A stretch of 46,571 nt of DNA from a virus. The translations under genes and the position numbers were made by a program. Each line of letters begins with the position of its first letter. The first letter of the stretch is position 1. Below the pieces are notes generated by a model that was not told where the DNA came from, did no database searches, and saw only the letters and a list, made by a program, of their open reading frames with translations. Shown here in pieces: positions 1 to 27,907 of the stretch. The stretch lies in the IMG/VR virus record IMGVR_UViG_3300027302_000009, positions 1 through 46,571 of that record. The stretch is one strand, 5' to 3'.

Positions 1-17
1 ATACTCAACTTCCTGAA

Positions 18-2255
18 ATGCAGGAAACTAGAAACTACGGTGCGGGCAATCAGTCCCAAGAAAAATACAAAAACTGGTTTACCAACGGATCTCCCATCGG
101 CACGAAGGGGATAAGTCAAAACGAAGCAAATGGTACTTCCAAGGGAATGAGTAAGGCTCAGAGAAAGGCCATGGCTAACATTAGTTATGACATTTTCTCT
201 CCAATGCGAAAACTATCGAATGTTCTTCTATCAATTCTTTCAGATAACGATTATAAACTTGATTGTGTTTCTCTTGATAAAAACATCATCAATAAAAAGA
301 AGCGTAAAAAATACGATTTGTACGCTAAGGCGAATTATACAAACCCTTTAGCACGAGAGCTTGGTCTTCCTGAGTTCAAGTTGCCTTTTGTACCCAAAGA
401 CGAGACCATGCTTGAAATGGCGGATCGTTTAGGTTTTTTCAAAAGCAAGTATGAGGTAGCCTTGGAAAAACTTGCTGAATCAGGCTTCAGGGCCTCTAAC
501 TGGGCTGGAGAGCGAATGGAGTTCAATCGCGATGCAATTGACTTCCATTTCCGTGCAGCAAAGATTTACAACGACCCTATTACCGGTCAAGTTAAGTTTC
601 AATATGTTGACCCTGCTCGAATGGTTATGCTTTGGAATGAAGACAACCAAGAGGAGCCTGTTGCTATTGGTCATATTGAGGCGGAAACTATACAGTCTAT
701 TTTTGATAAACTTATAGATGCTGGATTTAATGAGGCGCAGATTCAAGCTATGGCTAAATCATATGTGCCTTATCAAACGAACGTATCAACCATCCCTCAG
801 TGGGCCTTTGAACGCAAGGACTCCACTACAAATCGTTGGGTGTGGATGGATTTCAAGGTTTATGTTTTGAAGTTTGAGTATTTGTCTACCGACTACAAGC
901 AGTATGTAGAGCGTGTAAATAAGCAGGGTTATGGAAGTTACATCCGTAATAATAAGCCGGTAGAAGAAAAGAAGAAGAACCCAAACGATACCTACGACGA
1001 AGTTTCTTGTAATTATTGGTATGAGGGTTCTTATATCATCTCAGGAACCGGTCAAGATCGCATTTACGAGTGGAAGAAGAAGCCTAACCAAATGCAGAAG
1101 GGCCTTTCTCCAATGAGTTCATATGTAATTCATCGAATCAACGGACAATCTCCTACACGCAGCGTGAAGGGATTGCTTGATGATTTGATGTTTGCGGTAT
1201 TGAAATTACGTGCGGCGGTATGGGCTGCTGCTCCAAAAGGATATAGAATTGATGTGGGCGAAGCCGCCAACATCAAGATTGGAGGTGTAGAGTACGACTT
1301 GTTCGACCTCATGCACATCCACCGTCAGAACGGTATTCAGATTGTTGCTACTAAGTTTAATGCGGCAACAGGTAAGTACGTATCTCAACCCCTTGTTGAG
1401 ATGGATAATGGTCTTGGTCCACAGGGTCAAGAATGGCTTGCTCAAATAGCAAACATTCAAATGATGATTAAGGATCTTATGGGTATTCCGGATGCGATGG
1501 CCGCAAGCCCAGATCAATCGGCGGAACGATTAGTTGGAGTAATGGAGGCAGATTACGTTGCCGGAAATCATGCCAACTGGCCTCTTCGCGAGTCTGAGCG
1601 TCAATTCAAACAGAAACTTGGTGAGAGAATCATTCACCAGGCTCGAATAGATATTGAATATGACCCTAAGATTCGAGAGTTTTATGAAAGCGTTATTGGT
1701 GAAACTATGGTTAATGCACTTGATGAACTTGAGGGCTTATCATTAGATCAATTAGCTATTACTTGCAAGGTCCTTCCAAACGAAAAAGAAAAGAGCGCTA
1801 TTCTTCAACGTGCCATACAGATGTCTCAAATGCCAACTAAGGATGGAGCCGTTTTATTAAGTCCTTCAAGCGTAGAGCGTGTAGCCCAGCTTTTGAAGAA
1901 TGGAGATGTTGATGAAGCGCTTTGGTTCATGGCTACTGAAGAGACGGAAGCCCGTCAGCGCGAGGAACAACACGCACAAATGATGTTGCAGCAGACAATT
2001 CAAGGTCAGCAACAGTCTGCACTTATGACTGAGGAGGCTAAACGTCAAACTGCAATGCAGCTTGCTCAGATTGAAATCATGAAACAGCGTGAGATGGCTA
2101 ACATGGAACTTATGAAGGAACAGGAGATGGCCAAGATTAAAGCTGATTCAAACTATCAGGTTCAGTTATTGAAAGGAAAACAAGTATTGGAACAAATACA
2201 GCTTGAGGCAACCCTCGAAGCTCAAATGGGAAATGAAATAACAGGTAGAGTATAA
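18..2255 (+). CDS. Portal protein (probable)
   Basis: Probable portal protein, the dodecameric ring at the capsid vertex through which DNA is packaged and ejected. The 745-residue length, the position just before a scaffold-like gene and the major capsid gene, and the C-terminal Gln/Met/Glu-rich coiled coil (about residues 645-735) fit large podovirus portals. The middle is mixed alpha/beta with many Trp and Tyr, as in portal wing and stem domains. The frame is open to the left edge of the window (codons for TQLPE precede this Met), so the true start may lie upstream. A different frame carries a TGA at 14-16 that could end the preceding gene, possibly terminase, in which case the ATG at 18 would be the start. 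Assigned by context and composition, not by a diagnostic motif. Confidence 0.75.
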   Translation: MQETRNYGAGNQSQEKYKNWFTNGSPIGTKGISQNEANGTSKGMSKAQRKAMANISYDIFSPMRKLSNVLLSILSDNDYKLDCVSLDKNIINKKKRKKYDLYAKANYTNPLARELGLPEFKLPFVPKDETMLEMADRLGFFKSKYEVALEKLAESGFRASNWAGERMEFNRDAIDFHFRAAKIYNDPITGQVKFQYVDPARMVMLWNEDNQEEPVAIGHIEAETIQSIFDKLIDAGFNEAQIQAMAKSYVPYQTNVSTIPQWAFERKDSTTNRWVWMDFKVYVLKFEYLSTDYKQYVERVNKQGYGSYIRNNKPVEEKKKNPNDTYDEVSCNYWYEGSYIISGTGQDRIYEWKKKPNQMQKGLSPMSSYVIHRINGQSPTRSVKGLLDDLMFAVLKLRAAVWAAAPKGYRIDVGEAANIKIGGVEYDLFDLMHIHRQNGIQIVATKFNAATGKYVSQPLVEMDNGLGPQGQEWLAQIANIQMMIKDLMGIPDAMAASPDQSAERLVGVMEADYVAGNHANWPLRESERQFKQKLGERIIHQARIDIEYDPKIREFYESVIGETMVNALDELEGLSLDQLAITCKVLPNEKEKSAILQRAIQMSQMPTKDGAVLLSPSSVERVAQLLKNGDVDEALWFMATEETEARQREEQHAQMMLQQTIQGQQQSALMTEEAKRQTAMQLAQIEIMKQREMANMELMKEQEMAKIKADSNYQVQLLKGKQVLEQIQLEATLEAQMGNEITGRV

Positions 2256-8888: not shown

Positions 8889-9484
8889 TCACGAAACGTC
8901 AAGCCATTGAATTAATACAACACAGGTTGACCGGGGGCGATGTCCCAGAAGATTTGCGCCGTTTGTATCCTCGTTCGATTATTTCTCGTGTACTTAACTT
9001 AGCCCTTGCCGACATTGTATCACGCAATCCCTATGAGGCAAGTGACATGGCTGTTCCGTACACTTTCACTCCTGCTACTGACGCCAATGGTTACTATGTA
9101 ACTCTCAGTCCACAGCCAATTGCGGGGACTATGGCGATCTTTAGCGTAGAAGACCAGTCAACTGGGGATAATGGTTACATCGTTCAAAGCAAGGCAGAAG
9201 CCACGGCCATAAACATATTGCGCGGAGGAAACAACTCGGCGGCCATCCTTTTTAAGGATAAGTTGCGTTTCAACAGGAAGCCAGAGGGTGACGTTACAGT
9301 TACAATGGTTCCTAACGTATATCAAATGGCTGATGACGACGTTTTGATTATCCCTAGCGACGAAACGGGGAAGGGGGAAACAATGCTGTTCCAGGCGTGT
9401 ATGCAATTGCTTTCAACCCAAGGGTTCCAAGACGACTTGAATAACGATGGTATTGATGCTCAATCACAAAGGACTCAAGGATGA
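8885..9484 (+). CDS. Neck/adaptor-like virion protein
   Basis: A 199-aa protein with an N-terminal helical segment (AIELIQHRLTGGDVPEDLRR) followed by beta strands. Gene order places it in the neck or head-completion group. It is coupled to both neighbours by ATGA stop/start overlaps, so the three connector genes are probably made in fixed proportion. No signature motif is visible. Confidence 0.5.
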   Translation: MITKRQAIELIQHRLTGGDVPEDLRRLYPRSIISRVLNLALADIVSRNPYEASDMAVPYTFTPATDANGYYVTLSPQPIAGTMAIFSVEDQSTGDNGYIVQSKAEATAINILRGGNNSAAILFKDKLRFNRKPEGDVTVTMVPNVYQMADDDVLIIPSDETGKGETMLFQACMQLLSTQGFQDDLNNDGIDAQSQRTQG

Positions 9485-10212
9485 CAATAAAGAATATAAA
9501 ATATATCGCAACGTCCGCGTTGTACCGTTTGGGCAAGAACCCAGTTGGTCGCGAGCTTACTTGGATGACTCAGGTGGCCATTGACTATTTAAGTGAGAAG
9601 AGTCCGCTTGATGGGAATGTAAGTCTACGGACGATTTACGGGAAGATTGATACCGGCGCACGGGTATTTACAATGCCAGGAGACTGTATGAGGATTTCCA
9701 AGATTGGATTGAAGTCAGGCCGTCGCATTTGGACTCTAACTCCAGACACATCCTTGACCTATCCCGAAGAATTTTTTCAATGTGAAAGTGATCAAAATGA
9801 TGATGTTATTTTAGATGGATTCTTTCCTACTGGTTATTTTGGATATTTCTACAATTACCCAAACTATACTGTGGGAGGCGGACGAAACGAAAATTACTAT
9901 CGAGTAGATGGTAACAACATTATTTTCAGTCATAATATTCCTGATGGCCAGTTAGTAATCGAGTATTTCTCAAATGGGGCAGACGTTAATGAGAATACAT
10001 TGATTGATACGGCTTATGCCGAGCCTTTCCGTTTGTATTTGATGAGCGAATACTGCTTGCATAAAGGCGGAAGCGAAGACAAGGCTAAGTATAAAGAATT
10101 GCAGATGCAGTACGAGGCTGCACAGTGGAGCGCCAACCTTTTGGTTAAGGCTCCTCGCTTGAGTGAAATGATTGACGCACTTGCACAAAGTTCAGAATTT
10201 AACTTAGGATAA
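9481..10212 (+). CDS. Tail-tube/adaptor-like protein
   Basis: A 243-aa protein whose N-terminal helix (IKYIATSALYRLGKNPVGRELTWMTQVAIDYL), central beta-rich region and C-terminal helices resemble podovirus tail-tube or adaptor proteins (gp4/gp11 type). It directly precedes the 1447-aa tail protein, the usual order in P22-, T7- and crAss-like phages. The last base of its stop is the first base of the next start codon (TAATGG). The assignment is inferred. Confidence 0.55.
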   Translation: MTIKNIKYIATSALYRLGKNPVGRELTWMTQVAIDYLSEKSPLDGNVSLRTIYGKIDTGARVFTMPGDCMRISKIGLKSGRRIWTLTPDTSLTYPEEFFQCESDQNDDVILDGFFPTGYFGYFYNYPNYTVGGGRNENYYRVDGNNIIFSHNIPDGQLVIEYFSNGADVNENTLIDTAYAEPFRLYLMSEYCLHKGGSEDKAKYKELQMQYEAAQWSANLLVKAPRLSEMIDALAQSSEFNLG

Positions 10213-13200
10213 TGGAGTTTAACGAGGTCATAGTTTTTGAAGGCGGAATAAACACCGACGACACGCCACAGGCAGTCCCCAAGGGGGATTACCGCGATTT
10301 CTCGTATTGCCGATTAGGATACAATGCGGGTAATGCCATGGCGGTTACGACTTCAAGTGGAACTATCGTTATTCCCAATCTTGACATAGCTATCCAAGAT
10401 CAAATACTTGGGGCTACTCAGTGGCAAAAGGAAAATTCTATAGTTTACTTTGTTTATAAGGCTGACTTAAGCCACGAGATTTGGGTGTATGACATTACAA
10501 GTCAAACCCATATTCTTGCCGTACAAGATAACAGTCTTAATTTTAGTCGCGATTGGCCGATTTATCATGCTAATGTCGTAGATGATGTTTTAAAGTGGAC
10601 CGATGGCCGTTGGGATAATCAGATGTATGAGGCAGATGGAACTCGTTTATTTAACCCACCCTACCAAATTAATCTTCGCAAAGCGCTTGATGGTTACTAT
10701 ACAATAGTTGACCTTCAAACGATCGATGCTATAAAATGGCCACTAGACCCGCCAAGGATTAGTTATTTTACCGATCCCACAAGGAATGACAATAAGCTGC
10801 GGAATAAACTTTTTAAGTTTATTATTCAACCTATTTATGAAAATGGGGAGCTTGGTGTTTGGTCAATGTATTCTAATCTTGATCTTCCTCAACAGTCAGA
10901 GCTTGTAAGTGGAACCAATTGGATATTCCTAAACAACAGTAATGGAATAAAAATTCAGTTCAATACCGGTCCAGAAATAATTCGCAAGTTCAATTTGGCT
11001 GTTCAGCAATTTGACAAAGATGCCTTTGGGACGGAGCCGCCATTTGCTGTTTTTTTACAATTGGATAAAGATCAAGACAATATTCCAAGCAATTCTTTTT
11101 ATACTGTTGATTTTTATGGAGGAGTTGCAACCACTCCGGCCATAGATGTTTTTAAAAATTATGACCGATTACCCATAGTTGCCGATTGTCAAGAGTATCT
11201 TCCTACGAACCAATTAACTTATGTAAATTTTAGAGAGGGATACGACAAACCAACTGAAGCCCCATTCATATTGGATGTTGCTGTCGACTATGAGATAAAT
11301 GAGATTTTTTGGAATCCAACAAATGTCCAAGGACTATTTTATTTTCAATATAGTTTTATAGGTGGTCTTAATGTTTATACGTTGGACAACATATTGGCTG
11401 CAACTAATGCGGCTACTTTCAACCCTAATGCAGTATTCGCATTTTCTGAAGGCATGACATTAAGTTTTACGGATGGTAATAATGCTCCGATAAATTATAC
11501 CGTAACTCATGAGGACATTCAAAATGCAACGGCTTTATTCCCGTCTATTATTAATGCAAATTTGAGTGTATTACAAGTAATAGGAGATTCTTTTACAAAT
11601 CAATTAGGTATACCAAATGGTGTTGCGGGACCTGGGCTGCAACCCGATAGCATATATTACTCTACGACTGTTGGTGGACCATCTGGATTTGAATATCGTA
11701 GAGTAGTTTCTGCGTTGAAACCAACTCTTGCCACTCCATCTTTAAAATCTGGAGCAACTCATGAGTTTGGGATAGTATATGGAGATCGCGCGTATAGGGA
11801 TAGTACGGTTTATACGGTTGACTCAATGAATCTTTTTGTTCCTTGGTTTTACGATATAGATCGTTCAGGATTGACAAATGCCGAAGATCCTTTTACTATA
11901 AACCCAAAATTTACAATAGATCACATACCCCCAGTATGGGCTACTAAATACTGGATAGTTGCAAAACCCGCTACTGAAATTTTAAGTTTTGGGCAGTACA
12001 CAACAAATGCAAATCCTGTTCAAGGCGATGGTGGATATTACATTAGCTCTGTAACTCTTGATGTCGTTACAAATAATAGATATAAAATAGCAATAGACAA
12101 ATATTATGTGACTCAAAACTTAGGCGCTACTATTAATCATGAAATAAAAATTGGTGATAAAATAAGATTTATTAGAAGAAGACCTGGAGGTCCTGGGCCT
12201 ATAAGCATACAATATTTGCCGTATTTAGAGTTAGATGTAATAGGCTACGAATCTTCAGGCGCAGGCGTTGATGGAAGACAGGTTGTTTATACCAACTTAT
12301 TTGATACAACATTGATTGATGATGATCCTGGAGCTGTTGGTGGATTTTTATTTGGTCAATTGATAGAAATATATACTCCTCGACCATCTGTTGATAGCAC
12401 TGGAAATGTTTTTGTGAGTACCTGGAAAGACATAACTGAATCTATAGAAATAATCAATCCACATACAGAGAATAGATCTCACGGGAGTCCGTGTGAATAC
12501 ATTCTATATGTAGAAACAAATGCGATAGGTACACCTCAATTTTATATACAAGGCGATTATACCAATTTAAACAATACATCGTTCAATGTATTTGTTTACT
12601 ATGACGATAATACCTCAGATTCATTTTCAAATGTTACAATAACCACATCTTACAATCAAGTAAACAATTTAACTGCCGTCACTATACCCGGCGTGGTTGC
12701 TGATGCCAGGATATGGTATGTGTGCTTGACTAACAATGTGAATCAAGTTGTAACTGCGTTAAATTCGACTACGGCTGCTGAGTTTTCGTTGTCGTATGGA
12801 GATGTTTACGTAAGGCAACGTAATTATCAAACAGGATTAGTAGGTACTGGTGCTGTGATGTATTATTTTATCGAAGACCCTCATTACTCTGATTATTGGT
12901 CAAGTAATATCCACAATACAGGTAGAACAAGGGTTGAAGACCAAAACGCAAAGATGACTCATCGCCAGGCGACGGCTATTCACTCTGATTCTTTTATTTT
13001 TGGAACCCAGGTAAACGGCTTGTCTTCATTTGCACTTGACAACACCAATATTGAGGACATGAATCCAACGTTTGGAGGTGTTGTTAGAGCTTATATGTCG
13101 GGGCGTGAGGGTAAGACTCTTAAATGTATTCAACCAAAAAAGGAGAACTCAATTTACATTCAATTCTACCCCAATGAAGTTGGATCAGACTCAACGGTTC

Positions 13201-14555
13201 GTGTATCGAATAAGACGTTTGCCTCGTGGTTTGATTACAAGAGTCTTTTGGGCTGTTCTAATTCTGGCGCTACAGCTATTTTGCCTAATGGCTCTACGAT
13301 GTATTTTGACAATAACACAGGAGTGTTTGTATATTCGGGATCAAATGGCCAAATTCAAGTAAGTGAAGTAGATCCAGATAGCGGAAAGGACTATAAGTTC
13401 AGAACCAAAACAAAGGCTTTGGCAAAGGCTTACAACGAAAGTTCCAATCCAATGGTTCGAACATACGTGAATGAATCCGTTGGAGAAGTAGGTTTTGCTT
13501 TTAGATTTGACGTCCCCTATACCGGCGCGGCCTATGGAGCGTTTAATCCTCCAATAGTTGATACTGAATATTTCAGAATCAATGGAGACGTAGAATATCT
13601 GTATGACTATAGCATAGTGATCACTTTTTCTCCAGCAAATGGAGGGAGCGGAAATGTTTATCAAGGAACGATTAACTATGTTCAGTATAATCCTGCATTT
13701 GATTATACTTTGATAGGTATTGAGGGAGTATTGCCAAGCCCGGATGATTTTGATGTAGAAGGATATTATTTTACTACAAGCGGTTTGAGTTATGACCACG
13801 TAGTATTTGACTACGTTAACATGAGATGGAGATCAACCTATGACTATAACTTCAAACAGTTCTGCAACCTTGGGCAAACACTTGTGGGATGGGGTTTAAA
13901 CAATCAAATGTATCTCCACAATCAGCCTGGAAGCTGGGAGTTTCATGGTCAGCCATTCATTCAGAAGATTTCTTTTGTATCAAATGAAAATCCATTGATG
14001 CTCAAAAGGTATCAGGATATAACTTTGGTTTCTGATGATACATTTTCAATTGAGGCTTATTCAGAGCCAAACAGAAGTTATCCACTTGGAATGAAGACGT
14101 CAATGCCAACAAATATTGTAAACATATACGAAGGATACGGCAAGACGTACTATAGGAAAAACTTATATGACCCTAGATTTTTTAATACAGGAACATCAAC
14201 CGTAAGTAATTACGACCCAATGACTTACCCTGTTAATGGATGGCTTGTTCCTGGTGATCAACAGTTTTTGAATAATGAAAATATAACCATAATTCAAAGC
14301 GATGGCAGCATATTTTCCGCTAGAGTTGTGTCTGCGGTATACGATACAGTAAATGACAATACTTTGATTGAGCTTTTCAATCAAGGGCCTGGCACTTATG
14401 GTGTAACTGGATACTGGTACAACAGCGATAGAGCGATGTTGAACGGTGAAGATATCAGGGCAAATGCTTTGACTCATGATCTTTACTTTGACCCGTCACT
14501 AGCGGATCAGTCATCTGTTCTTTTCTCAGTTGGAATAAAGGGTGTTTTATCTTAA
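10212..14555 (+). CDS. Large tail stabilisation/tail-hub protein
   Basis: A 1447-aa protein, almost entirely beta-structured with many Tyr, Asn and Asp. The opening FEGGINTDDTPQAVPKGDYRDF resembles the start of the long 'stabilisation' (P22 gp10-like/tail tubular B-like) proteins of podoviruses and crAss-like phages, which form the tail hub below the connectors. No enzyme motif was seen. Its last codons contain the -7 box of a promoter for the next gene, so the internal-virion block can be transcribed separately. Confidence 0.65.
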   Translation: MEFNEVIVFEGGINTDDTPQAVPKGDYRDFSYCRLGYNAGNAMAVTTSSGTIVIPNLDIAIQDQILGATQWQKENSIVYFVYKADLSHEIWVYDITSQTHILAVQDNSLNFSRDWPIYHANVVDDVLKWTDGRWDNQMYEADGTRLFNPPYQINLRKALDGYYTIVDLQTIDAIKWPLDPPRISYFTDPTRNDNKLRNKLFKFIIQPIYENGELGVWSMYSNLDLPQQSELVSGTNWIFLNNSNGIKIQFNTGPEIIRKFNLAVQQFDKDAFGTEPPFAVFLQLDKDQDNIPSNSFYTVDFYGGVATTPAIDVFKNYDRLPIVADCQEYLPTNQLTYVNFREGYDKPTEAPFILDVAVDYEINEIFWNPTNVQGLFYFQYSFIGGLNVYTLDNILAATNAATFNPNAVFAFSEGMTLSFTDGNNAPINYTVTHEDIQNATALFPSIINANLSVLQVIGDSFTNQLGIPNGVAGPGLQPDSIYYSTTVGGPSGFEYRRVVSALKPTLATPSLKSGATHEFGIVYGDRAYRDSTVYTVDSMNLFVPWFYDIDRSGLTNAEDPFTINPKFTIDHIPPVWATKYWIVAKPATEILSFGQYTTNANPVQGDGGYYISSVTLDVVTNNRYKIAIDKYYVTQNLGATINHEIKIGDKIRFIRRRPGGPGPISIQYLPYLELDVIGYESSGAGVDGRQVVYTNLFDTTLIDDDPGAVGGFLFGQLIEIYTPRPSVDSTGNVFVSTWKDITESIEIINPHTENRSHGSPCEYILYVETNAIGTPQFYIQGDYTNLNNTSFNVFVYYDDNTSDSFSNVTITTSYNQVNNLTAVTIPGVVADARIWYVCLTNNVNQVVTALNSTTAAEFSLSYGDVYVRQRNYQTGLVGTGAVMYYFIEDPHYSDYWSSNIHNTGRTRVEDQNAKMTHRQATAIHSDSFIFGTQVNGLSSFALDNTNIEDMNPTFGGVVRAYMSGREGKTLKCIQPKKENSIYIQFYPNEVGSDSTVRVSNKTFASWFDYKSLLGCSNSGATAILPNGSTMYFDNNTGVFVYSGSNGQIQVSEVDPDSGKDYKFRTKTKALAKAYNESSNPMVRTYVNESVGEVGFAFRFDVPYTGAAYGAFNPPIVDTEYFRINGDVEYLYDYSIVITFSPANGGSGNVYQGTINYVQYNPAFDYTLIGIEGVLPSPDDFDVEGYYFTTSGLSYDHVVFDYVNMRWRSTYDYNFKQFCNLGQTLVGWGLNNQMYLHNQPGSWEFHGQPFIQKISFVSNENPLMLKRYQDITLVSDDTFSIEAYSEPNRSYPLGMKTSMPTNIVNIYEGYGKTYYRKNLYDPRFFNTGTSTVSNYDPMTYPVNGWLVPGDQQFLNNENITIIQSDGSIFSARVVSAVYDTVNDNTLIELFNQGPGTYGVTGYWYNSDRAMLNGEDIRANALTHDLYFDPSLADQSSVLFSVGIKGVLS

Positions 14556-14560
14556 ATTTG
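14530..14560 (+). promoter_or_regulatory. Bacteroidota-type promoter for the internal-virion block
   Basis: TTG at 14530-14532, a 20-nt spacer and TAAATTTG at 14553-14560 match the Bacteroidota TTG-N19..21-TAnnTTTG promoter. It spans the end of the large tail gene. The ATG at 14567 is only 6 nt beyond the -7 box, so the transcript would be leaderless or nearly so. Confidence 0.65.
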
Positions 14561-14566
14561 CGAACT

Positions 14567-15493
14567 ATGGACCCAATTACATTAGCATTAATAGCGGCTG
14601 GAGGATCAGCACTCTTTCAGGGGATTAAAGGGGTGCAGCAAACACGTGAGGCCAAGGAGATGCAAAAAAACCTTGGCGCAAGGGTTAATTATCAAATACC
14701 CGAAGAAGCTAAAAAGGCCCTTGCTCTTTATCAGAACATGGCGGCATCTCAGACCATGCCCGGTCAGCAATTGATGCAAAACATGATTGATATGCAACAA
14801 GCAAAGACCTTGGGAGGTGCAAGCCGTGCGGCTACATCATCACAAGATTTGCTTGGTGTTGCTACACAACTTGGAGAGAAAGGCATGGAACAGCAACAAG
14901 AACTTGGTTTGGCTGCTGCTCAAAATTATATGCAACGTCAACAGAATTTAGCTGGGGCATTAGGCACTATGGCTGGATATCAAGAAAAGGTGACTGCCGA
15001 CAAGCAACAAGATTGGTATGAAAGGGCGGCAGCGGCAAGAGAGATGAGAGAGGCGGGACTTCAGAATACGATGGGAGCTGTTCAAGGCATAGGCCAGATG
15101 GGGATGATGGCAGCTATGGGTGGCTTTGGCGGAGGGGGAGGTACAGGTACAGGCGCAGGCTCTATGGCCGACTCGTTTACCAAGGCTTCAGACTTACCTT
15201 CTTCTATTGGAGGGTCAGGTCTTTTTGCAAACGCTCCCAGATTTGCGGGATCTACGTCAAGCGCACTTAATTTTTCAAGCCCGTCATACGGCAGTTACAG
15301 AGATAAACTAGGACTTGATGGTTCTTATCTTTACCCCGATACTCCAACACAACAGCAGCCTGGTTTTTACAACGGGACAGATATGAACGACTGGAGGAAT
15401 CAGAGCGGCTTGTATAATTTTAAAACGTCGCCAAATAAGTCAATGTTGAACCCTGATGATTGGCGTTCTGGTTTCTTTAATAATATACATTAA
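14567..15493 (+). CDS. Internal virion protein, Ala/Gln/Met-rich
   Basis: A 308-aa protein with a short hydrophobic N-terminus (ITLALIAAGGSALFQGI), a long Ala/Gln/Met-rich helical middle and a Gly-rich hinge near residues 180-200 before a polar C-terminus. This matches the general look of ejected internal virion proteins such as T7 gp14, which enter or bridge the host membrane. ATG at 14567 is chosen over an in-frame TTG at 14558 because that TTG lies inside the -7 promoter box. It is first in a run of internal-protein candidates. Confidence 0.55.
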   Translation: MDPITLALIAAGGSALFQGIKGVQQTREAKEMQKNLGARVNYQIPEEAKKALALYQNMAASQTMPGQQLMQNMIDMQQAKTLGGASRAATSSQDLLGVATQLGEKGMEQQQELGLAAAQNYMQRQQNLAGALGTMAGYQEKVTADKQQDWYERAAAAREMREAGLQNTMGAVQGIGQMGMMAAMGGFGGGGGTGTGAGSMADSFTKASDLPSSIGGSGLFANAPRFAGSTSSALNFSSPSYGSYRDKLGLDGSYLYPDTPTQQQPGFYNGTDMNDWRNQSGLYNFKTSPNKSMLNPDDWRSGFFNNIH

Positions 15494-15496
15494 AAA

Positions 15497-16729
15497 ATGG
15501 CACAGATAGCAAGTCAAGGAAGGGTGGGAGAACAAGGCGGTGGTGAAGCTGTCGTATTCGACACGTCTGCATTTTTCCAGAATGTATACAACATGCAAAA
15601 GGATTTGTATGCACGTCAGGAAAAGAAGAAACAAGATATAAAACGCCAGCAAGCCACATGGAACGCCTATCTCGACGATATGCCGGATGTTTGGCAATCT
15701 GACTACGAATACGTAAACAAGGCTCTTAACGAATACAACGACTACATAGTTGATTTGAAGACTCAGGGCTTGGATCCAGAAGCTCTAGATCCTATGATTA
15801 TGAAAAAAATCAAGGAGCTTCAGAACAAGGTGGCAAAGGAGACTTCAAGGGCTAAGGATAACGAGACTTACTCTAACCAGTCGTTTCAAATTTTGAACAA
15901 CGACAAGACGAATAAGTATAATAAAGATCATGCTACTCAATGGCTCAGGGATTATAGCGATCCTACCAAGAGTCCAGAGCAAAGAGCCAAGATGCGTATT
16001 GAGTCTAATCCGTTTAAGTTAAACTACGATATAAACGAGTTTGTTAAAGAAACGATGCCGGAAGATTCTCTTAAAGATAACGGGAGAGTAGAAACTATTT
16101 TTGTCGATAAAGATGCTCACAAGGCGGTAATATTTGAAAATATAACTCAGACAGAAACGGGCGCCGAGATATACGAGAGTTTAAAAAAACCAAATGAAAC
16201 CCCTGATGAATTCGCTGAACGAATGTCGGAACTTGGTCAAAAAATAAACCCGCCAAGAACAAAGGTGCAACCTGCTCCTGTTGGGGGCGGCGGAAGAGGT
16301 TCTGGAGGTGGAGGAGGTTCACAAAAGGAACCTGACGTTCTTATTACAGGACAAAGCAAAGAAACCGATCCTGAATGGGATCAATCTTATGGCGTCAACA
16401 AAATCGCTCTTGGTAAAACAAAGCCGGTATACGTTTATGGTGACGATGGAAAGCCGGTTATGAATTTTGTTCCTGCTGATGGATTTTATCTAAAGCCCGG
16501 TGGATCTGTAGCCGCAAAAGGGTATGGAACTATTGAAGAAGTTCAACCAGACGGCACCAAACTCGCTAAACAGATTGCCATTACAGTTGACTACGATAAA
16601 AACAAAGGAAACTTTGATGCTCAAGGATACCCCAATATCTTTGACGAGTTTAGAACAAGGACGGGAATAACCAGTCCTACAGGAGTAACATACACAGGTG
16701 TACCAACAGGAGGATTTAATGGACAGTAA
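15497..16729 (+). CDS. Internal virion protein candidate
   Basis: A 410-aa protein with a charged, helical N-terminal half (residues about 20-140, rich in Lys, Asp and Gln). A Gly-rich linker (GGGGRGSGGGGGS, about residues 262-274) leads to a compact beta-rich C-terminal part. It begins 3 nt after the preceding stop and overlaps the giant gene by 11 nt. Its position with an Ala-rich protein before and a giant protein after suggests it is packaged in or ejected from the virion. No known domain was recognised. Confidence 0.5.
   Translation: MAQIASQGRVGEQGGGEAVVFDTSAFFQNVYNMQKDLYARQEKKKQDIKRQQATWNAYLDDMPDVWQSDYEYVNKALNEYNDYIVDLKTQGLDPEALDPMIMKKIKELQNKVAKETSRAKDNETYSNQSFQILNNDKTNKYNKDHATQWLRDYSDPTKSPEQRAKMRIESNPFKLNYDINEFVKETMPEDSLKDNGRVETIFVDKDAHKAVIFENITQTETGAEIYESLKKPNETPDEFAERMSELGQKINPPRTKVQPAPVGGGGRGSGGGGGSQKEPDVLITGQSKETDPEWDQSYGVNKIALGKTKPVYVYGDDGKPVMNFVPADGFYLKPGGSVAAKGYGTIEEVQPDGTKLAKQIAITVDYDKNKGNFDAQGYPNIFDEFRTRTGITSPTGVTYTGVPTGGFNGQ
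16708..16713 (+). promoter_or_regulatory. Strong Shine-Dalgarno site before giant gene
   Basis: AGGAGG lies 5 nt before the ATG at 16719, inside the last codons of the preceding gene. It decides this start over an in-frame GTG at 16698. A perfect Shine-Dalgarno site is unusual here, where most starts have none. Confidence 0.6.
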
Positions 16730-22700: not shown

Positions 22701-24449
22701 AGTTATGCTGTAAAACGAGAAATCGCAGACATGGCCAAGAATGATGGATACCAGATGATTGTTGGAGAGTGGTCATATAGTAGAACCGGCGCCCCAGCAG
22801 GAGAAGTCCCTGAGTTCCGTGCAGACGCCCTTGTTCCACTCAAGCCAACAAAGGAGAAACCAGAGTCATTCACATCGAACGCCGAGAAGGGCATGGAGCG
22901 TATTCCGTTCCCAAGCCAACAGAGTGAACAGGCCAAGCAAGAGCTTGAGTCTATCGCCTCCGAGGTGCGTGATATCATGTCTTCTAAGAAGAAGTTCTCA
23001 AGCAAGGAATACCAGCTTGCTGACAGCGTTTACATGAATGGTCAGGTTACTGAAAACAAGTACGAAGACAACGAATTCAAGCGCGACATCACTCCGGAAG
23101 AGTACGACATGATGGTCAAGGTTCTTCCTAAGAATATGCAAGAAGACGCGGCCCGTGTGCGCGTACTGTTGTTCGGTGGCAAGAAAAAAGGACAGGCTTC
23201 TAAGGGCATTCCAAGAACATCTAAAGAGTTCGCAGGTAACGTAGGAGAGACGATTGACCGTATCAAGGCTGCAACATCGGAGGATGGGGCAACGCTCAAC
23301 CTCGATGGTACAACCTACGAAGATGGAGGTCTTGTGGTTCCTGCCGGTTCATTGAACGTGGCCCAGGATGAGGTTACTGCCGAGGGCTTGTTTGAGTTTT
23401 TAAAGGATAATGAGGAGAATATTTCCAGCGACATATTCAAGATTGGACTTTACAAGTTCCCCGATCGTCCAGAGGTTTCTTACGACTTGAACATCGTGAT
23501 CCCAAGGGAGTACCGTGATGTGGCCTTGAAGTTTGGTGAATTGTCTGGACAGGAATCATTGTTTGACCTTGATACATTCGAGAACATCAAGACCGGATCA
23601 GACGGTAAGAACCCACGCAAATTCACAGCCCAAGAGCTTGCTGAGATTGCCAAGGATTTGTCTGAGGGTAGACTTCCAAAGATTGTTTCAAAAGAAGAGA
23701 TTGATAGAAAGTGGGGAGAGAAAAAAATGATCGCTTTAACTAAGCGAGAGGACTTTGGAACAAAGAATGACAGGGAAATTGCTGCCTATGCTTCTAAATT
23801 CCTGAATAAATTCGGACCATACACCAAGGCCAATGTTGTTCAGATTATGAATATGTCTGCTGAAGAGAAAATCAAACTCATCAATGACACATTTGAAGCT
23901 AGGGTCAAAAAAATGAATCCCGCCTTTAGAGAGCCTGGAAATGATTTTTATGATCAATCAGTTAAGCGTAGGGACGAGGTATTAGCTCTGGTTACAAAGC
24001 CAACCGGCCAGCCATCAATGATGAAGCGCACTCCTGCCCAAATCAGACAGGCTGTAGAAGATGGGGTAGACGCAGTTGAAGCAGCGATTGCAGAGGGCAT
24101 GGATCCACAGCAGGCCGTTGACGAGAACATCTCAAACCAGGACTGGTACGGTGATTTGAGTCCTGCCCAGAAGCAGCAGCTGAATGAAATCCTTCAAGAC
24201 GAGTTTGGTGCTACGGCAAGTGAGCCAAAGGCGACTACACCGGTTGGAGAACAGATTGCAAGCATCGTTGATAACTACTATAAGCTCAAAGACGGAGACC
24301 GCGCTGAACGTGCAACTGCCCGTGCTGCTATAGACGAAATTTTGGATCGCGACCCAAAACTGAAGTATATTTACAAAAATATTAGCGACATTAATAAGCA
24401 ACTGCAAAACGCAGGTGTGATAACAGATAAAACCGACGGTTGCCCGTAA
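16719..24449 (+). CDS. Giant polyvalent internal virion protein with metallopeptidase-like motif
   Basis: A 2576-aa protein. The N-terminus has two tandem 22-residue units spaced 30 residues apart (6-27 and 36-57, pattern I-x-KFM-x-x-N-x-LT). Coiled coils follow (about 150-560), then Gly/Ala-rich, membrane-like segments (about 620-720). Residues 1299-1303 are HEGIH, in VFHEGIHPV, an HExxH zinc-protease-type motif. Residues about 1900-1985 (FFHVS...YYTRPEDGE...VP..KVYPID) resemble ADP-ribosyltransferase-like domains of phage polyvalent proteins, with low certainty. Such giants are usually packaged and injected with DNA, carrying enzymes that blunt host defences. Codon and base composition vary along the gene (about 21000-22340 is more AT-rich), which suggests mosaic assembly. 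The HExxH peptidase call is moderate, the transferase call weak. Confidence 0.65.
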   Translation: MDSNPIYKFMKENNLTQMDEASFIKAYSDPQKSAEIHKFMVDNKLTNLDANAFHSAYFDTSKKKVSTDSSEPAGQPGKPSAPSFGQKVINEALVSGNPVMKGVKKQPTEKKPYQDITYRREEMPSETTQMPETPIIKAAKKDFKQTVVKPQVKLPSTPEELEEIQKKTETFDKDNLTLNNYQSSADIVNDLEDLYDEDVNVVYNRIQRRPDLYQKYSGRSINEMPSTDPASEQAWQERNKDRDVVYQNYLADLESQRNKHSVATKQANDLSDSILMKKITPETYKNYTSEKTETANFGEISAGTVIDMDKVDEEAIAIAEKYNLPTDGEAWRLLKNKIKNQVAFEIRRPAALEKLKATEPELYKKRQELFESGFTFDDSTYARVESELIGLQSQYEQDAKNEFNIIDAEYKSKAEALNSQYAQFNAATEAKQGELTKLYQSGQIDRLAYESAWGQLEEEKKANHENYTKEFPSPEEYVRKSNEINSKYNRKFDLQKKSLVDKADAEIKAAYQKYASEYKEDPELLRQMNEAYSKAFEDAEKEALDKMGEAADLSVIPLSRFYQSTLSSLGGVFKGWGGSLDSKAFEVLGESMEQNFMMPAAKTEGFKDWLNPQNLQLLSGQLAGSMIPSVTVTATATALTGGMGIVPLVAGGLVGWGSETVDIVGRSYLDTFDRTNGNVVEANKAAERSLQSQYDLMWTYSLDALPFLKGSWLTKIPRAGARMAAGGAIELGTEFIQEYPQNIAEENISRGQDPWTNLGQALQDTDKMKQTLISIGPVAALGAVGQVGSNSRKQQAIDRYVALQQKSELSSALPDQRRQYIQSMVFDRGSKFASGVVGALYANGNIDQDMAADMLMQVAKADRIRESGKEAGLKGDKLNIYGFYTARAEEAERNAAKFGNDPILSESYKQMAKQYRDAGLDFMKGGKPDLLTITYADKSQEFLMPEDVNALFANPAALASLNKKKISIEAYNDKGESIKVLDELKSRAETYASEKRYIAPVTRTSPLQAQRDAIQQRIQELDKQGPEMTAKERAKAIKDIEDQAAQEEKTSDQRDLEIEALQAKREALGVSEVDAFFSDMKPLVGTTVQRLEQGQNAPQSAIKVASDYLYAKYKELTAMKSDPNRMMTIAQIDSIQAQLEQDLQTLEGNPPSQQTQTNDQENIQGLPSEIGVGQESITTQPVEGTSEEAPATGGVLQAQEEVVTPQVTEEPAPKAPRKTRLAKLFETSEGEEAVPLIEQSLSESGIKVEVKDDADYNNDDRIKRSQGRGSEGMFVADDGTIILNRDKIKGEWGKTIVFHEGIHPVVNIIRNTDPKRYKAIVEGLKAEAARNTEVAKAAADIAASEEYQRRGPESIEDETVVETMARVATGDVNIDKFNPTFREKFIEFMNDIAKALGLKPILTNSPRMEVQRLAGQINKMLNEGGKISDVVGKKNVKEFQYTEAAQKRAVSIAKGKESLLKYGLKKGVNTTRKIGEALEKRSRELYGIIARDDRSEKALKAISSFMADEVRFFVEEFGENSGKGWYGEKFQKGLDAMAAVFPEMKDDQNARDLFTMLVAITSDGTEVMQNFQQASLAYKNYKETGKMPTTAKAQRAESYIVNFRNIQELLDKYDGDIQAIKKELLTVGSISDLNQQRKAQGLEKLDTQWPASFKVPLAASIFGPKLGMFYANLSGMEQYPTLDRWWSRTFNRYRGTLIPQITRGYNKKGEALGIDRYREIAGLKDASEEEVLARIVQDHDTYEDRGYKKGTPAEKAANTLYKKLYVELNDAPFGAKDRQFMYDAFIETQKKLKRSGVNVTIADIQAILWYFEKNLYKKLGVTKPIQGISYEDAANKTFEKWKNAGNSFNYAIKESEQGETIDEVDIDEESKPTVQPSKDIKRGSNLVKDTYYESGLTEDKNDYVFFHVSSAPKESIQKGIDSTRYFSLRTSRKEKGLQYGVASYYTRPEDGETMVGGEKYAIRVPKDKVYPIDSDPNGYSEKAESNIPQNTPFRSYAVKREIADMAKNDGYQMIVGEWSYSRTGAPAGEVPEFRADALVPLKPTKEKPESFTSNAEKGMERIPFPSQQSEQAKQELESIASEVRDIMSSKKKFSSKEYQLADSVYMNGQVTENKYEDNEFKRDITPEEYDMMVKVLPKNMQEDAARVRVLLFGGKKKGQASKGIPRTSKEFAGNVGETIDRIKAATSEDGATLNLDGTTYEDGGLVVPAGSLNVAQDEVTAEGLFEFLKDNEENISSDIFKIGLYKFPDRPEVSYDLNIVIPREYRDVALKFGELSGQESLFDLDTFENIKTGSDGKNPRKFTAQELAEIAKDLSEGRLPKIVSKEEIDRKWGEKKMIALTKREDFGTKNDREIAAYASKFLNKFGPYTKANVVQIMNMSAEEKIKLINDTFEARVKKMNPAFREPGNDFYDQSVKRRDEVLALVTKPTGQPSMMKRTPAQIRQAVEDGVDAVEAAIAEGMDPQQAVDENISNQDWYGDLSPAQKQQLNEILQDEFGATASEPKATTPVGEQIASIVDNYYKLKDGDRAERATARAAIDEILDRDPKLKYIYKNISDINKQLQNAGVITDKTDGCP

Positions 24450-24455
24450 TAAGAC

Positions 24456-24947
24456 ATGAAACCCAATAAGTTAGAAAAGAACATTGTAGACCTCTTGGTT
24501 CCGCGTCATCTCGATGAGATGGATGCCTTTTACTTCTATCGTGCCGCTAGCAACTGGTGTCAGAACGTAGGCTACTTCAAGGCTGCTGAGTTTTTTGCGG
24601 CTGAGTCTGCCGACGAACTCGTTCACGCTGGTAAGATTGAAAAGTACTTGGTAGATTGGAACATAAGCGTACCACTTCCTTCTATTCCTAAGCCACAGAT
24701 TGAGTTCTCAGGATTGTTGGAAGTGATTGAAGAGGCGTACAAAATTGAGTACGAGTTGTACGAGAAGTACGAGGATACGTCGAGGAAAATTTTTGAAGCA
24801 AAGGATGTATGCACATTTGACTTCTTGCAGGAGTTCCGTGGTATTCAAACCAAGTCGGTTGCAGAATACAGCGACAAACTCAATATGCTTGAGGGCGTGA
24901 AAGGTGACAAATTCGAAATGTTATTGCTTGAGAAAAAACTGTTCTAA
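24456..24947 (+). CDS. Ferritin family protein (non-haem, ferroxidase-competent)
   Basis: A 163-aa ferritin by length and motif order. Aligned by eye with E. coli FtnA and H-ferritin, the ferroxidase ligands are all present: E21 (first-helix Glu), Y28 seven residues on and W34 thirteen on, E54 and H57 (ExxH, second helix), E98 (third helix) and Q131 (fourth helix). These correspond to H-ferritin E27, Y34, E62, H65, E107 and Q141. The extra third-site acids of bacterial FtnA are missing (I130 and S134 in their place). Ferritins oxidise Fe(II) and store Fe(III) in 24-mer shells. The gene lies 6 nt after the giant internal protein and overlaps the start of the next virion gene (TAATG), so it is co-translated with virion proteins. 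Its role in the particle or the infected cell is unknown. Confidence 0.88.
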   Translation: MKPNKLEKNIVDLLVPRHLDEMDAFYFYRAASNWCQNVGYFKAAEFFAAESADELVHAGKIEKYLVDWNISVPLPSIPKPQIEFSGLLEVIEEAYKIEYELYEKYEDTSRKIFEAKDVCTFDFLQEFRGIQTKSVAEYSDKLNMLEGVKGDKFEMLLLEKKLF

Positions 24948-27907
24948 TGGCCAACCCTTGTAAGGTAACAATCAAAACTTCTAAGAATGCTACTCCAAAG
25001 GAGATGACCTTTGAGGAGTACATGGAGATGCTCTATGACGGGGCGTTGGAGAATTTCATTGCCGATGGCATGTTGAACGCCAATGCTCTCAAAGGCGAAA
25101 TTGCCGGGGCAAAAGAAGCCGAAGAGGAAAAACCAAAGACACGCCGCAAGGCTTTGTTTGGTAGGGCTGTGAAGGGATTGGATGTGGAGGCTGCTAAGAA
25201 GGCCATTGAGAAGTACGGATTGACCTACGATGTAGAAAACAGAACAGATGCAAGGGTAGCTGCTCAGAAGTTTATCGATGATGTTGGCTTTGATGCCGCG
25301 CTGCAATCGGTGAGAATTAATTTGATGGACGACGGTGCTGGAGCGTATGTATTCGCAGAGCTTATTGATCAGTTGGAAACGGACATGGAGTTTGCCGAGA
25401 CCGATCAGGAAATGGCTGACTTGGTTGAGTTGCAGCAGCAGTTGTTCAATGAGTTTGACCGGAAGGCAAGAAGTGCTGGTCGATTCATATCTTCATTGGA
25501 TGACATCTATCGCAACTCTAAGTTTGGTTACTCTGCTGAGAAGAAGATACAAGAGTATAAGGATAAAAACTCAGGATTTATACCTGAGGAAGTTGAGAAA
25601 AAGTTCCGCAGCCTTGATGAGAAAATCAAGGAACTGAACAAGAAGATTAAGGAGGCAGAGGCTCGTGCTAAAAAAGCAGAAGAAGACGGCATTATTGCCG
25701 AGATTGTAACGAGCGTCAAGCAAAAACAGACGGCCAAAACCACATATACAAAGAAAGCCAAGGCTGTAGCCGATGACTTTCGCAAGAAGTTAAAGACAAA
25801 GCCCATCCAATTCAAGGATGCCAACGGTAACGTAATTGAGGTAAAGACTCAGGGATTATCGTGGAATGACCTTGTTGAGGTGGGTGCAAAGGCTATTGAG
25901 GCAACCGGTAAGATCGCTGATGGTATTGCAGCCATGATGAATGCCGTTGAGCAGGAGGACTGGTACAAGAAACTCAATAGCGCAGACAAGGATGCCGTTC
26001 GCGCACAGGTGGAGGGCGTGTTCTCTGAGGAAACTCCGGGAGAAATCCAGATCCCATCGGGCATGATCCGCAGCTTTGTGGAGTCGGGTATCGATAACAT
26101 GGACGACCTTGTGGCTGCTGTAAAGACCATGCTGTCTGACAAGTATCCCAACGCCACGGACCGCGAAATCCGTGATGCTATTACTGGTTACGGCAAGGAA
26201 GTCACCAAGACTTCGGATGACATTCAAGCCGAAATCAATGCCCTAAAGCGTATTGGTAAACTCACATCAAAGATCGAGGACCTACAGGCTGGCATCGCAT
26301 CCGAGACTGATCCTAAGAAAAAGGCTAAGAAGACGCAGGAGGAAAAGGATTTGATTAAGCAGGTTGAAAATCTGTTAGAGTCTAGCGGCATCAAGAACGC
26401 CAAGAGATTGGATCAGGCCAAGCAACGTGCGGCCAAGAGAATCGAGGAACTTCAAGAAAGACTTAATACTGGTAACTTCTCCAAGAAGAAACCAACTCCA
26501 CTGATTGAAGATGAGGAACTCGCCAAGCTGCGTGTACAAAAGCAGAACTTGCAGGACGAGTTTGATACCGAGATGTACAAGATGGAGCTTGAGAACAGAA
26601 CCAAGTTCGAGAAATTCCGAGATGCATTGCTTGAGATATGGAACATCCCACGCGCACTTATGGCGACGGGTGAAATTTCGTTCTTGCTTATCCAAGGTGG
26701 TATCCAAACGTTGTCTCATCCTATCAACGCCGCTAGAGCATTCTACAAGGCGATACAACACTTTGCTAGCGAGAAGAAGGCGAAAGAATGGGGTGACTTC
26801 ATTAAGACTCAGCCATACTACGAGCAAATGAAGAAGTCAAAACTTGCTTTGTCTGAGTTCGATGCTAGGTTGAATGCACAGGAAGAACAGTTCTTGGGTG
26901 GATGGGTAAACTTCATGTGGGACTACGCCGGATGGCCAGTCAAGTTGATGGGTGGTCAGGCTTATGAAAAGTGGAAACAGCTCAATGTATTCAAGGCACT
27001 GGAAAGGGCTACGGTTGGTTACATGAATACCATTCGTATCCTCCGTTACTTGGACGGAATGAAGAAGTTGGAGATGGAGGGAAAGAATTTCAATGACAAC
27101 ACAGAGGAGTACAAGAATGTTGCTGACGTAATCAACACCCTTACTGGTAGGGCGTCTCTAGGTCCACTTGAGGGCAAGGCTTCAAAGGTGCTTTCTACCG
27201 TGTTCTTCTCTCCTCGCAACTGGGCGTCTGTCCTCAAGACCATGACTCCATTTGCTTTTTATCACTTCGGTAAGATGGGACAGAAGGGAACTTACAAGCC
27301 ATCGGTAGCCCAGAAGATGGCCATGGCCGACTTCATGACCTATATGGCCGTTACAGGTTCCATGGTTGCACTCATGGCTGCTAAGTTTAATGACGATGAC
27401 GATGAAGAGACAGAGGTTTCTTTGGATCCGTACAGCTCAGACTTCATGAAGATTCGCCTTGGCAATACCCGTATAGACCCATGGGCGGGTAAACAACAGA
27501 TGGTCGTATTCCAGGCTCGCATGATTATGAATGCGATTACCAAGGGGGGTGAAACTAAGAAACTCGGTCAGGGAATGTTTACTCCTACCAGGTCTGAGTT
27601 AGCGGCTCAGTTAGTTCAAAACAAACTTGCACCTACTGCCGCACTTGCTGTTAAGTGGGCGCAACAGAAAGTCGATAAAGAGGGTAAAGGAACGTTGTAT
27701 GGCGAAGAGTTTTTGTTATCGGAAGAGCTTGCTGGTAGCCTTTATCCTATGTACATAGGCACTGTTAATGAGCTTTGGGAAGATCAACCTGAAACGGTTT
27801 CTGGTTTCTTGACAGCATACGCATTCCTCGGAGGAGGCGTGTCTACCTACAAGACCAAAGAACAGAAAGAAAAAGAGAAAAAAGCTAAGATAGAAGAATC
27901 AAAATAA
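24947..27907 (+). CDS. Large internal virion/polyvalent protein
   Basis: A 986-aa protein that is mostly helical. It has a coiled coil (about residues 195-240), a section with two WY/helix motifs related to the C-terminus of the preceding giant protein (QDWYGDL...LNEIL versus EDWYKKL...), hydrophobic stretches near 570-590 and 795-815, and a conserved-looking C-terminal block RLGNTRIDPWAGKQQ followed by a Lys/Glu tail. The C-terminal block resembles that of other phage polyvalent or ejection proteins. Membrane-like segments suggest it contributes to the DNA-ejection channel. The start overlaps the ferritin stop. Confidence 0.55.
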   Translation: MANPCKVTIKTSKNATPKEMTFEEYMEMLYDGALENFIADGMLNANALKGEIAGAKEAEEEKPKTRRKALFGRAVKGLDVEAAKKAIEKYGLTYDVENRTDARVAAQKFIDDVGFDAALQSVRINLMDDGAGAYVFAELIDQLETDMEFAETDQEMADLVELQQQLFNEFDRKARSAGRFISSLDDIYRNSKFGYSAEKKIQEYKDKNSGFIPEEVEKKFRSLDEKIKELNKKIKEAEARAKKAEEDGIIAEIVTSVKQKQTAKTTYTKKAKAVADDFRKKLKTKPIQFKDANGNVIEVKTQGLSWNDLVEVGAKAIEATGKIADGIAAMMNAVEQEDWYKKLNSADKDAVRAQVEGVFSEETPGEIQIPSGMIRSFVESGIDNMDDLVAAVKTMLSDKYPNATDREIRDAITGYGKEVTKTSDDIQAEINALKRIGKLTSKIEDLQAGIASETDPKKKAKKTQEEKDLIKQVENLLESSGIKNAKRLDQAKQRAAKRIEELQERLNTGNFSKKKPTPLIEDEELAKLRVQKQNLQDEFDTEMYKMELENRTKFEKFRDALLEIWNIPRALMATGEISFLLIQGGIQTLSHPINAARAFYKAIQHFASEKKAKEWGDFIKTQPYYEQMKKSKLALSEFDARLNAQEEQFLGGWVNFMWDYAGWPVKLMGGQAYEKWKQLNVFKALERATVGYMNTIRILRYLDGMKKLEMEGKNFNDNTEEYKNVADVINTLTGRASLGPLEGKASKVLSTVFFSPRNWASVLKTMTPFAFYHFGKMGQKGTYKPSVAQKMAMADFMTYMAVTGSMVALMAAKFNDDDDEETEVSLDPYSSDFMKIRLGNTRIDPWAGKQQMVVFQARMIMNAITKGGETKKLGQGMFTPTRSELAAQLVQNKLAPTAALAVKWAQQKVDKEGKGTLYGEEFLLSEELAGSLYPMYIGTVNELWEDQPETVSGFLTAYAFLGGGVSTYKTKEQKEKEKKAKIEESK

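Follow-up and report, generated by a model that had tools for sequence, protein, structure and literature searches.

We analyzed a 46,571-nt stretch of viral DNA (IMG/VR record IMGVR_UViG_3300027302_000009, referred to as the window) and found that a ferritin gene lying between two giant cargo genes is a core gene of the phage lineage to which the window belongs. Profile searches, ligand positions and a structural model confirmed that this ORF encodes a genuine classical ferritin which, as judged by its ligands, is H-type and ferroxidase-competent. Ferritin-superfamily genes of phages have so far been treated as scattered accessory genes, whereas here a classical ferritin belongs to the core. 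That a classical ferritin is fixed in a virion cassette as a core gene appears to be new, within a known kind. Since the gene is fixed lineage-wide in the virion operon and its signatures occurred in none of the cellular genomes searched, iron or oxygen handling appears to be an integral part of how these particles are made. The features of the window and the related sites are listed in Table 1.

Table 1. Features of the window (first ten lines) and sites in related loci. L numbers are our labels for loci.
Feature	Position	Strand	Basis or remarks
Portal protein, truncated 5' at the window edge	3..2255	+	phrog_6547 1e-45; 22% to Pachyviridae/Elemovirus portals
243-aa tail/adaptor protein	9481..10212	+	phrog_394 tail 7e-5; SU10_adaptor 5e-4, below Pfam cut-off
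1447-aa tail/muzzle-like structural protein	10212..14555	+	L025/L024 homologues lead to phi46:3 gp111 'structural protein'; position of crAss001 gp44
311-aa protein, 0 Cys, putative ejected cargo	14558..15493	+	Position of crAss001 gp45 / T7 gp14; putative role
410-aa protein, 0 Cys, putative ejected cargo	15497..16729	+	Position of crAss001 gp46; putative role
Giant upstream virion/cargo protein, 2583 aa	16698..24449	+	Homology to Elemovirus 'structural protein'
Lone Cys codon, residue 2582/2583 of upstream giant	24441..24443	+	Penultimate (...TDGCP)
Phage ferritin, 163 aa + stop	24456..24947	+	Complete di-iron ferroxidase site, helix E, no third-site acids
Giant downstream protein, 986 aa	24947..27907	+	N-terminal MANPC...; predicted mostly alpha-helical
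Lone Cys codon, residue 5/986 of downstream giant	24959..24961	+	
N-terminal motif of downstream chains	window 24947-25070; L106; L118; L126 11998		
Loci with terminal-Cys cargo pattern	window; L002-L125; L126 7338-20244; L130 9120-27724; L150-L155		
GCHEC (CxxC) proteins at another chain junction	L021 6249-6440; L049 1419-2120; L055 992-1945		

The predicted protein matched the Pfam Ferritin profile (PF00210) with an E value of 2e-20 (73.6 bits against a cut-off of 24.5) and matched solved bacterial ferritins with E values down to 3e-16. An AlphaFold2 model, for which 37 family members served as input, had a pLDDT of 94 and a pTM of 0.88 and consisted of four long helices followed by a C-terminal helix E at residues 152-162. 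For this model, Foldseek returned the ferritins of V. cholerae and H. pylori (TM 0.90-0.91, with 0.91 for H. pylori); sequence identity to bacterial non-heme ferritins was ~27-28%. The initial annotation, made from the sequence alone, had named six di-iron ligands (E21, Y28, E54, H57, E98 and Q131), and all were found at these positions; in a gap-free alignment they correspond to E17, Y24, E50, H53, E94 and Q127 of H. pylori Pfr. These residues were invariant in 14/14 relatives in one alignment and in 37/37 diverse relatives in a wider one. The same annotation was also correct about the loss of the third (C) site acids, since Pfr E126 is replaced by I130 and Pfr E130 by S134; the equivalent of Pfr E49 is D53, a position held by D, E or N among relatives. 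The bacterial third iron site is not required for all ferritins. H. pylori Pfr and the FtnA proteins of V. cholerae and E. coli resemble the window ferritin in fold, A/B iron-site ligands, the Tyr and helix E, but the latter lacks the C-site acids, falls in a phage-only clade and is encoded in a virion operon. Within this clade C35 and C119 were near-invariant.

The H-type set characteristic of a classical PF00210 ferritin (E, Y, E, ExxH, E, Q) was present. Dps proteins have an inter-subunit ferroxidase site, lack a C-terminal helix E and form 12-mers; identity as a Dps was ruled out by the intra-subunit E/E-x-x-H/E/Q set together with helix E. Bacterioferritin was likewise ruled out, as Q131 was invariant (not His) and residue 52 is Ala instead of the heme-ligand Met. 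Helix E was predicted in the model, and the window ferritin may assemble into a 24-mer cage; the diameter of a folded ferritin 24-mer is about 12 nm. No signal or tail peptide was detected on the protein.

The uncultured lineage of the window likely infects Bacteroidota. This assignment is based on the portal, which was ~22% identical to its counterparts in Cellulophaga Pachyviridae and Flavobacterium Elemovirus, on a stretch common to the upstream giant and an Elemovirus 'structural protein', and on a BT4734-like primase encoded by a near relative (G003, 66 kb). The length of the upstream giant was counted from a GTG, and a nearby ATG may be its true start. Pfam and PHROG searches of the giants returned nothing useful, and no RNA polymerase was recognized in the two giants of the window. 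The AlphaFold2 model of the 986-aa downstream giant was of low confidence (pLDDT 63) and had no match in the PDB. We also noted that Limnohabitans phage DC33 (L031, PQ492659) is recorded as Inoviridae; its record is 39 kb long and encodes a 3125-aa homologue of the upstream giant, and the label looks wrong.

Searching IMG/VR with the window ferritin itself identified 26 loci, and a profile scan identified at least 97 that encode the ferritin clade. From the latter we kept 80 loci, whose ferritins were 50-100% identical to the window protein. Two peptide patterns, EKYLVDWN and EYxLYExYE, are signatures of the clade and retrieved no relative from 84,980 cellular genomes, a pattern search that distant cellular cousins could escape. 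The clade had no match in a 50,697-record phage collection, and the protein search returned no named phage. These searches support the placement of the window ferritin in a phage-specific clade of its own. The initial annotation had suggested that the protein diverged for a phage-specific use; of this, a phage-specific clade was supported. Pairwise dN/dS values of 0.01-0.09 indicated that the gene is under strong purifying selection. In an independent test of core status, relatives were collected by their portal and the ferritin was sought in the 20 longest records; 16 carried it, while the remaining four were fragments ending 9-19 kb past the portal. Since the portal-to-ferritin distance in the window is 22 kb, these fragments stop short of the position of the gene, and every informative relative (16/16) has it.

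The ferritin ATG lies 6 nt past the stop codon of the upstream giant, and the gene overlaps the ATG of the downstream giant by 1 nt (TAATG), which agrees with the translational coupling on both sides claimed by the initial annotation. In the survey of neighbors that it had called for, a large ORF was located directly upstream of the ferritin in nearly all of the 80 loci, usually with an overlap or a gap below ~35 nt, and in most loci another large ORF followed directly downstream. When loci were collected with the N-terminus of the downstream chain, a query built mainly from ferritin-phage sequences, the ferritin directly preceded that chain in 19/19. A second group of loci (L022, L059, L060, L063-L065, L073-L074 and others) had no downstream giant and kept the ferritin, suggesting that the gene is tied to the cargo cassette or operon and not to one partner. 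At L059, L060, L063-L065, L074 and L078, a conserved 184-196-aa protein with the motif LPFQLVNIRSxADKPNxFDDLLG stood right after the ferritin in place of the giant. Other genes occupied gaps between cargo genes sporadically, namely an apparent homing endonuclease (L114), a 445-aa ORF (L024) and gp37 of phi17:2. Their presence would allow the ferritin to be a passenger with no virion-linked role, trapped in an insertion-tolerant gap, but these insertions are sporadic while the ferritin is universal in the lineage and strongly selected, and we consider this reading very improbable.

The order of the window genes (adaptor, muzzle, the 311- and 410-aa proteins and two giants) parallels that of crAss001 gp43-gp50. 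In crAss001, mass spectrometry identified gp45, gp46, gp47, gp49 and gp50 as cargo of the virion, and their ejection is believed to take place in a partly unfolded state (PMC10172136). The crassvirus cassette (gp45-gp50) shares with the window a Cys-depleted cargo and terminal Cys residues on the giants, but has no ferritin. In the 87-kb ferritin phage L096, a chain homologous to crAss001 gp50 (2e-55) was found immediately after the ferritin, which ties the ferritin-phage and crassvirus cassettes together.

What does the ferritin do? The best reading, to which we give somewhat better than even credence, is that of a ferroxidase made late, which acts inside the infected cell while particles are being produced. 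The protein would be co-translated with the giant internal cargo proteins on both sides and, as virions are produced, would bind Fe(II), use the intact di-iron site to oxidize it and store it as a ferric mineral. This activity may reduce Fenton damage, both to the phage DNA and to the cargo proteins, which would be vulnerable at their lone terminal cysteines; it may also hold iron for the phage program. Working ferroxidase chemistry is suggested by the intact ligands and the selection on the gene. Of the two roles proposed initially, Fe(II)/peroxide buffering in the infected cell is the better supported, whereas packaging in or ejection from the particle has so far found no support, nor has a use of siderophore receptors.

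Related genes in other viruses have been interpreted in a similar way. Gut Bacteroides phages of the 'Gratiaviridae' and 'Flandersviridae' carry Dps and Mn-catalase genes that were read as serving in oxidative-stress or iron protection (PMC8008677), which supports action in the cell. These Dps proteins, like the window protein, belong to the ferritin superfamily and come from phages of related hosts; the window protein differs in having classical-ferritin ligands and helix E. The crAss001 protein gp7, annotated as DpsA, is encoded among tRNA genes and not in the cargo cassette as the window ferritin is, and the PF00210 search did not detect it (L127 4551-5000). Ferritins of giant algal viruses (NCLDV) are virus-encoded like that of the window, and control of iron within the host cell during infection has been proposed for them; their viruses infect eukaryotes, however, and no link to virion genes is described in the passages on them (PMC7136201). 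Some points count against a role in the cell. An ordinary stress gene need not hold one exact cassette position across divergent phages, and crassviruses with similar cassettes but without a Pfam ferritin show that other phages manage without this function.

The constant position of the gene, flanked by those of two giant virion proteins, also raises the question of whether the ferritin is itself a virion component, kept alongside the cargo as an iron-loaded or empty cage (or as dissociated subunits) until it is delivered or shed when the phage infects. Translational coupling favors co-assembly, and crassvirus capsids contain a large protein cargo zone (PMC10172136). However, the ferritin has the cassette location of an ejected protein without the Cys-free interior: it keeps C35 and C119, whereas the putative ejected proteins here and the known ones of T7 and N4 avoid internal Cys, the neighbors in the window being Cys-free except at their ends. 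This difference suggests, indirectly, that the ferritin is not ejected, and it is the reason why we favor action in the cell over packaging. Moreover, the protein has neither a signal nor a tail peptide, and a folded 24-mer would be wider than the tail constrictions, which are below 50 A in crAss001 (PMC10172136). We therefore regard a place in the virion as unlikely.

The flanking giants showed a pattern that was missing from the initial annotation, in that each carries a lone cysteine at the end facing the ferritin. This arrangement was repeated in ~60 loci, although away from the ends the giants of these loci showed hardly any alignment (18-19% mean column identity). After near-identical ferritins had been removed, a C-terminal Cys upstream and an N-terminal Cys downstream occurred together in 30 loci, neither occurred in 14, and a single locus was discordant (Fisher p 9e-11); this was L114, where an endonuclease-like gene is inserted between the giant and the ferritin. 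Several three-chain loci (e.g. L093, L095 and L109) had Cys at both ends of the middle chain. Sequenced genomes behaved similarly. In Leptolyngbya phage Lbo-JY46, a 1552-aa chain whose sole Cys is its last residue precedes a 2748-aa chain whose sole Cys is residue 4. In crAss001, Cys is found at residue 2339 of 2341 in gp47, at 5 and 2404 plus one internal position in gp50, and at 5 in gp49. In phi14:2, gp78 ends in Cys (C-terminal 1502 aa covered), gp77 has Cys at 3 and 2179 of 2180, and gp76 at 3; the record annotates all three as structural by experimental MS/MS. A ferritin-profile match inside gp78 (E 0.002, below cut-off) was taken as chance. Phages phi17:2, DAC15, cr111_1 and cr50_1 also fit, some with extra internal Cys, so that the pattern spans Crassvirales, Cellulophaga phages and a cyanophage. 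Multiplying the chance probabilities for eleven single-Cys chains of sequenced genomes gave ~10^-28, a rough value uncorrected for kinship and for the choice of chains. There were exceptions: in phi46:3, neither of the consecutive chains gp120 and gp121 contains Cys; crAss002 gp32 ends in ..VCS, whereas the first 34 residues of gp33 are free of Cys; and in L021 and L049 a middle chain with a terminal Cys follows a chain that does not end in Cys.

As controls, T7 gp15 and gp16, the N4 vRNAP (3500 aa), N4 gp51 and N4 gp52 contained no Cys, and neither did the unsplit Elemovirus giant (3667 aa). We read Cys depletion as a mark of ejected proteins, an empirical rule derived here, which most crassvirus cargo also follows. 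The downstream chains begin with a common motif (approximately MAxPCxIxxxGKxYxxxxFAxMLHDGxL) that is modeled as beta-beta-alpha, and the upstream chains end in a helix terminating in N/D-G-x-C-P; together they resemble a docking pair. The idea that a single ancestral giant, such as the 3667-aa Elemovirus protein, was simply broken in two at the ferritin site was not supported, because homologous blocks are reordered and lie in different chains. There is about an even chance that the paired cysteines couple consecutive giant chains, most simply through disulfides; metal binding and non-covalent docking are alternatives. Disulfides are present in the tail of crAss001 virions, and reduced as well as non-reduced samples were run in the crAss001 study. 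No mention of terminal cysteines on cargo proteins turned up in the open-licence papers searched, and the string 'cystein' is absent from the main text of the crassvirus structure paper (PMC10172136). If the chain ends are joined, this would explain how the order of large ejected proteins is kept, a question that the same paper left open.

Fe(II)/O2 chemistry at the ferritin could supply an oxidant (peroxide) or iron that joins the lone terminal cysteines of the giants. In nearly all loci with two Cys-capped chains, the gene marks the precise point where they meet, and the 19/19 placement before the downstream chain, with its mainly ferritin-phage query, points the same way. However, phages whose giant lacks a terminal Cys still carry the ferritin, and Cys-capped junctions occur in crAss001, phi14:2, phi17:2, DAC15 and Lbo-JY46, in none of which a Pfam ferritin was detected; these five isolates led us to reject the ferritin as a requirement for such junctions. 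C119 was also rejected as the partner of the terminal cysteines, since it does not co-vary with them and remains present in phages with a giant that lacks one. A role in chain joining is possible but not needed, because each feature occurs without the other, and we think it quite improbable that the ferritin is such a redox partner. Equally doubtful is the broader proposal that crass-like and related phages use a covalent head-to-tail cargo train, linked through single terminal cysteines, which exits the capsid in order, while the window's lineage adds a dedicated ferritin, encoded where the chains couple, that controls or provides the iron/oxygen chemistry for making or protecting the link. 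At another chain junction of some relatives, we observed a small GCHEC (CxxC) protein of 63 to 317 aa placed before a MAKGC chain whose upstream partner has no terminal Cys.
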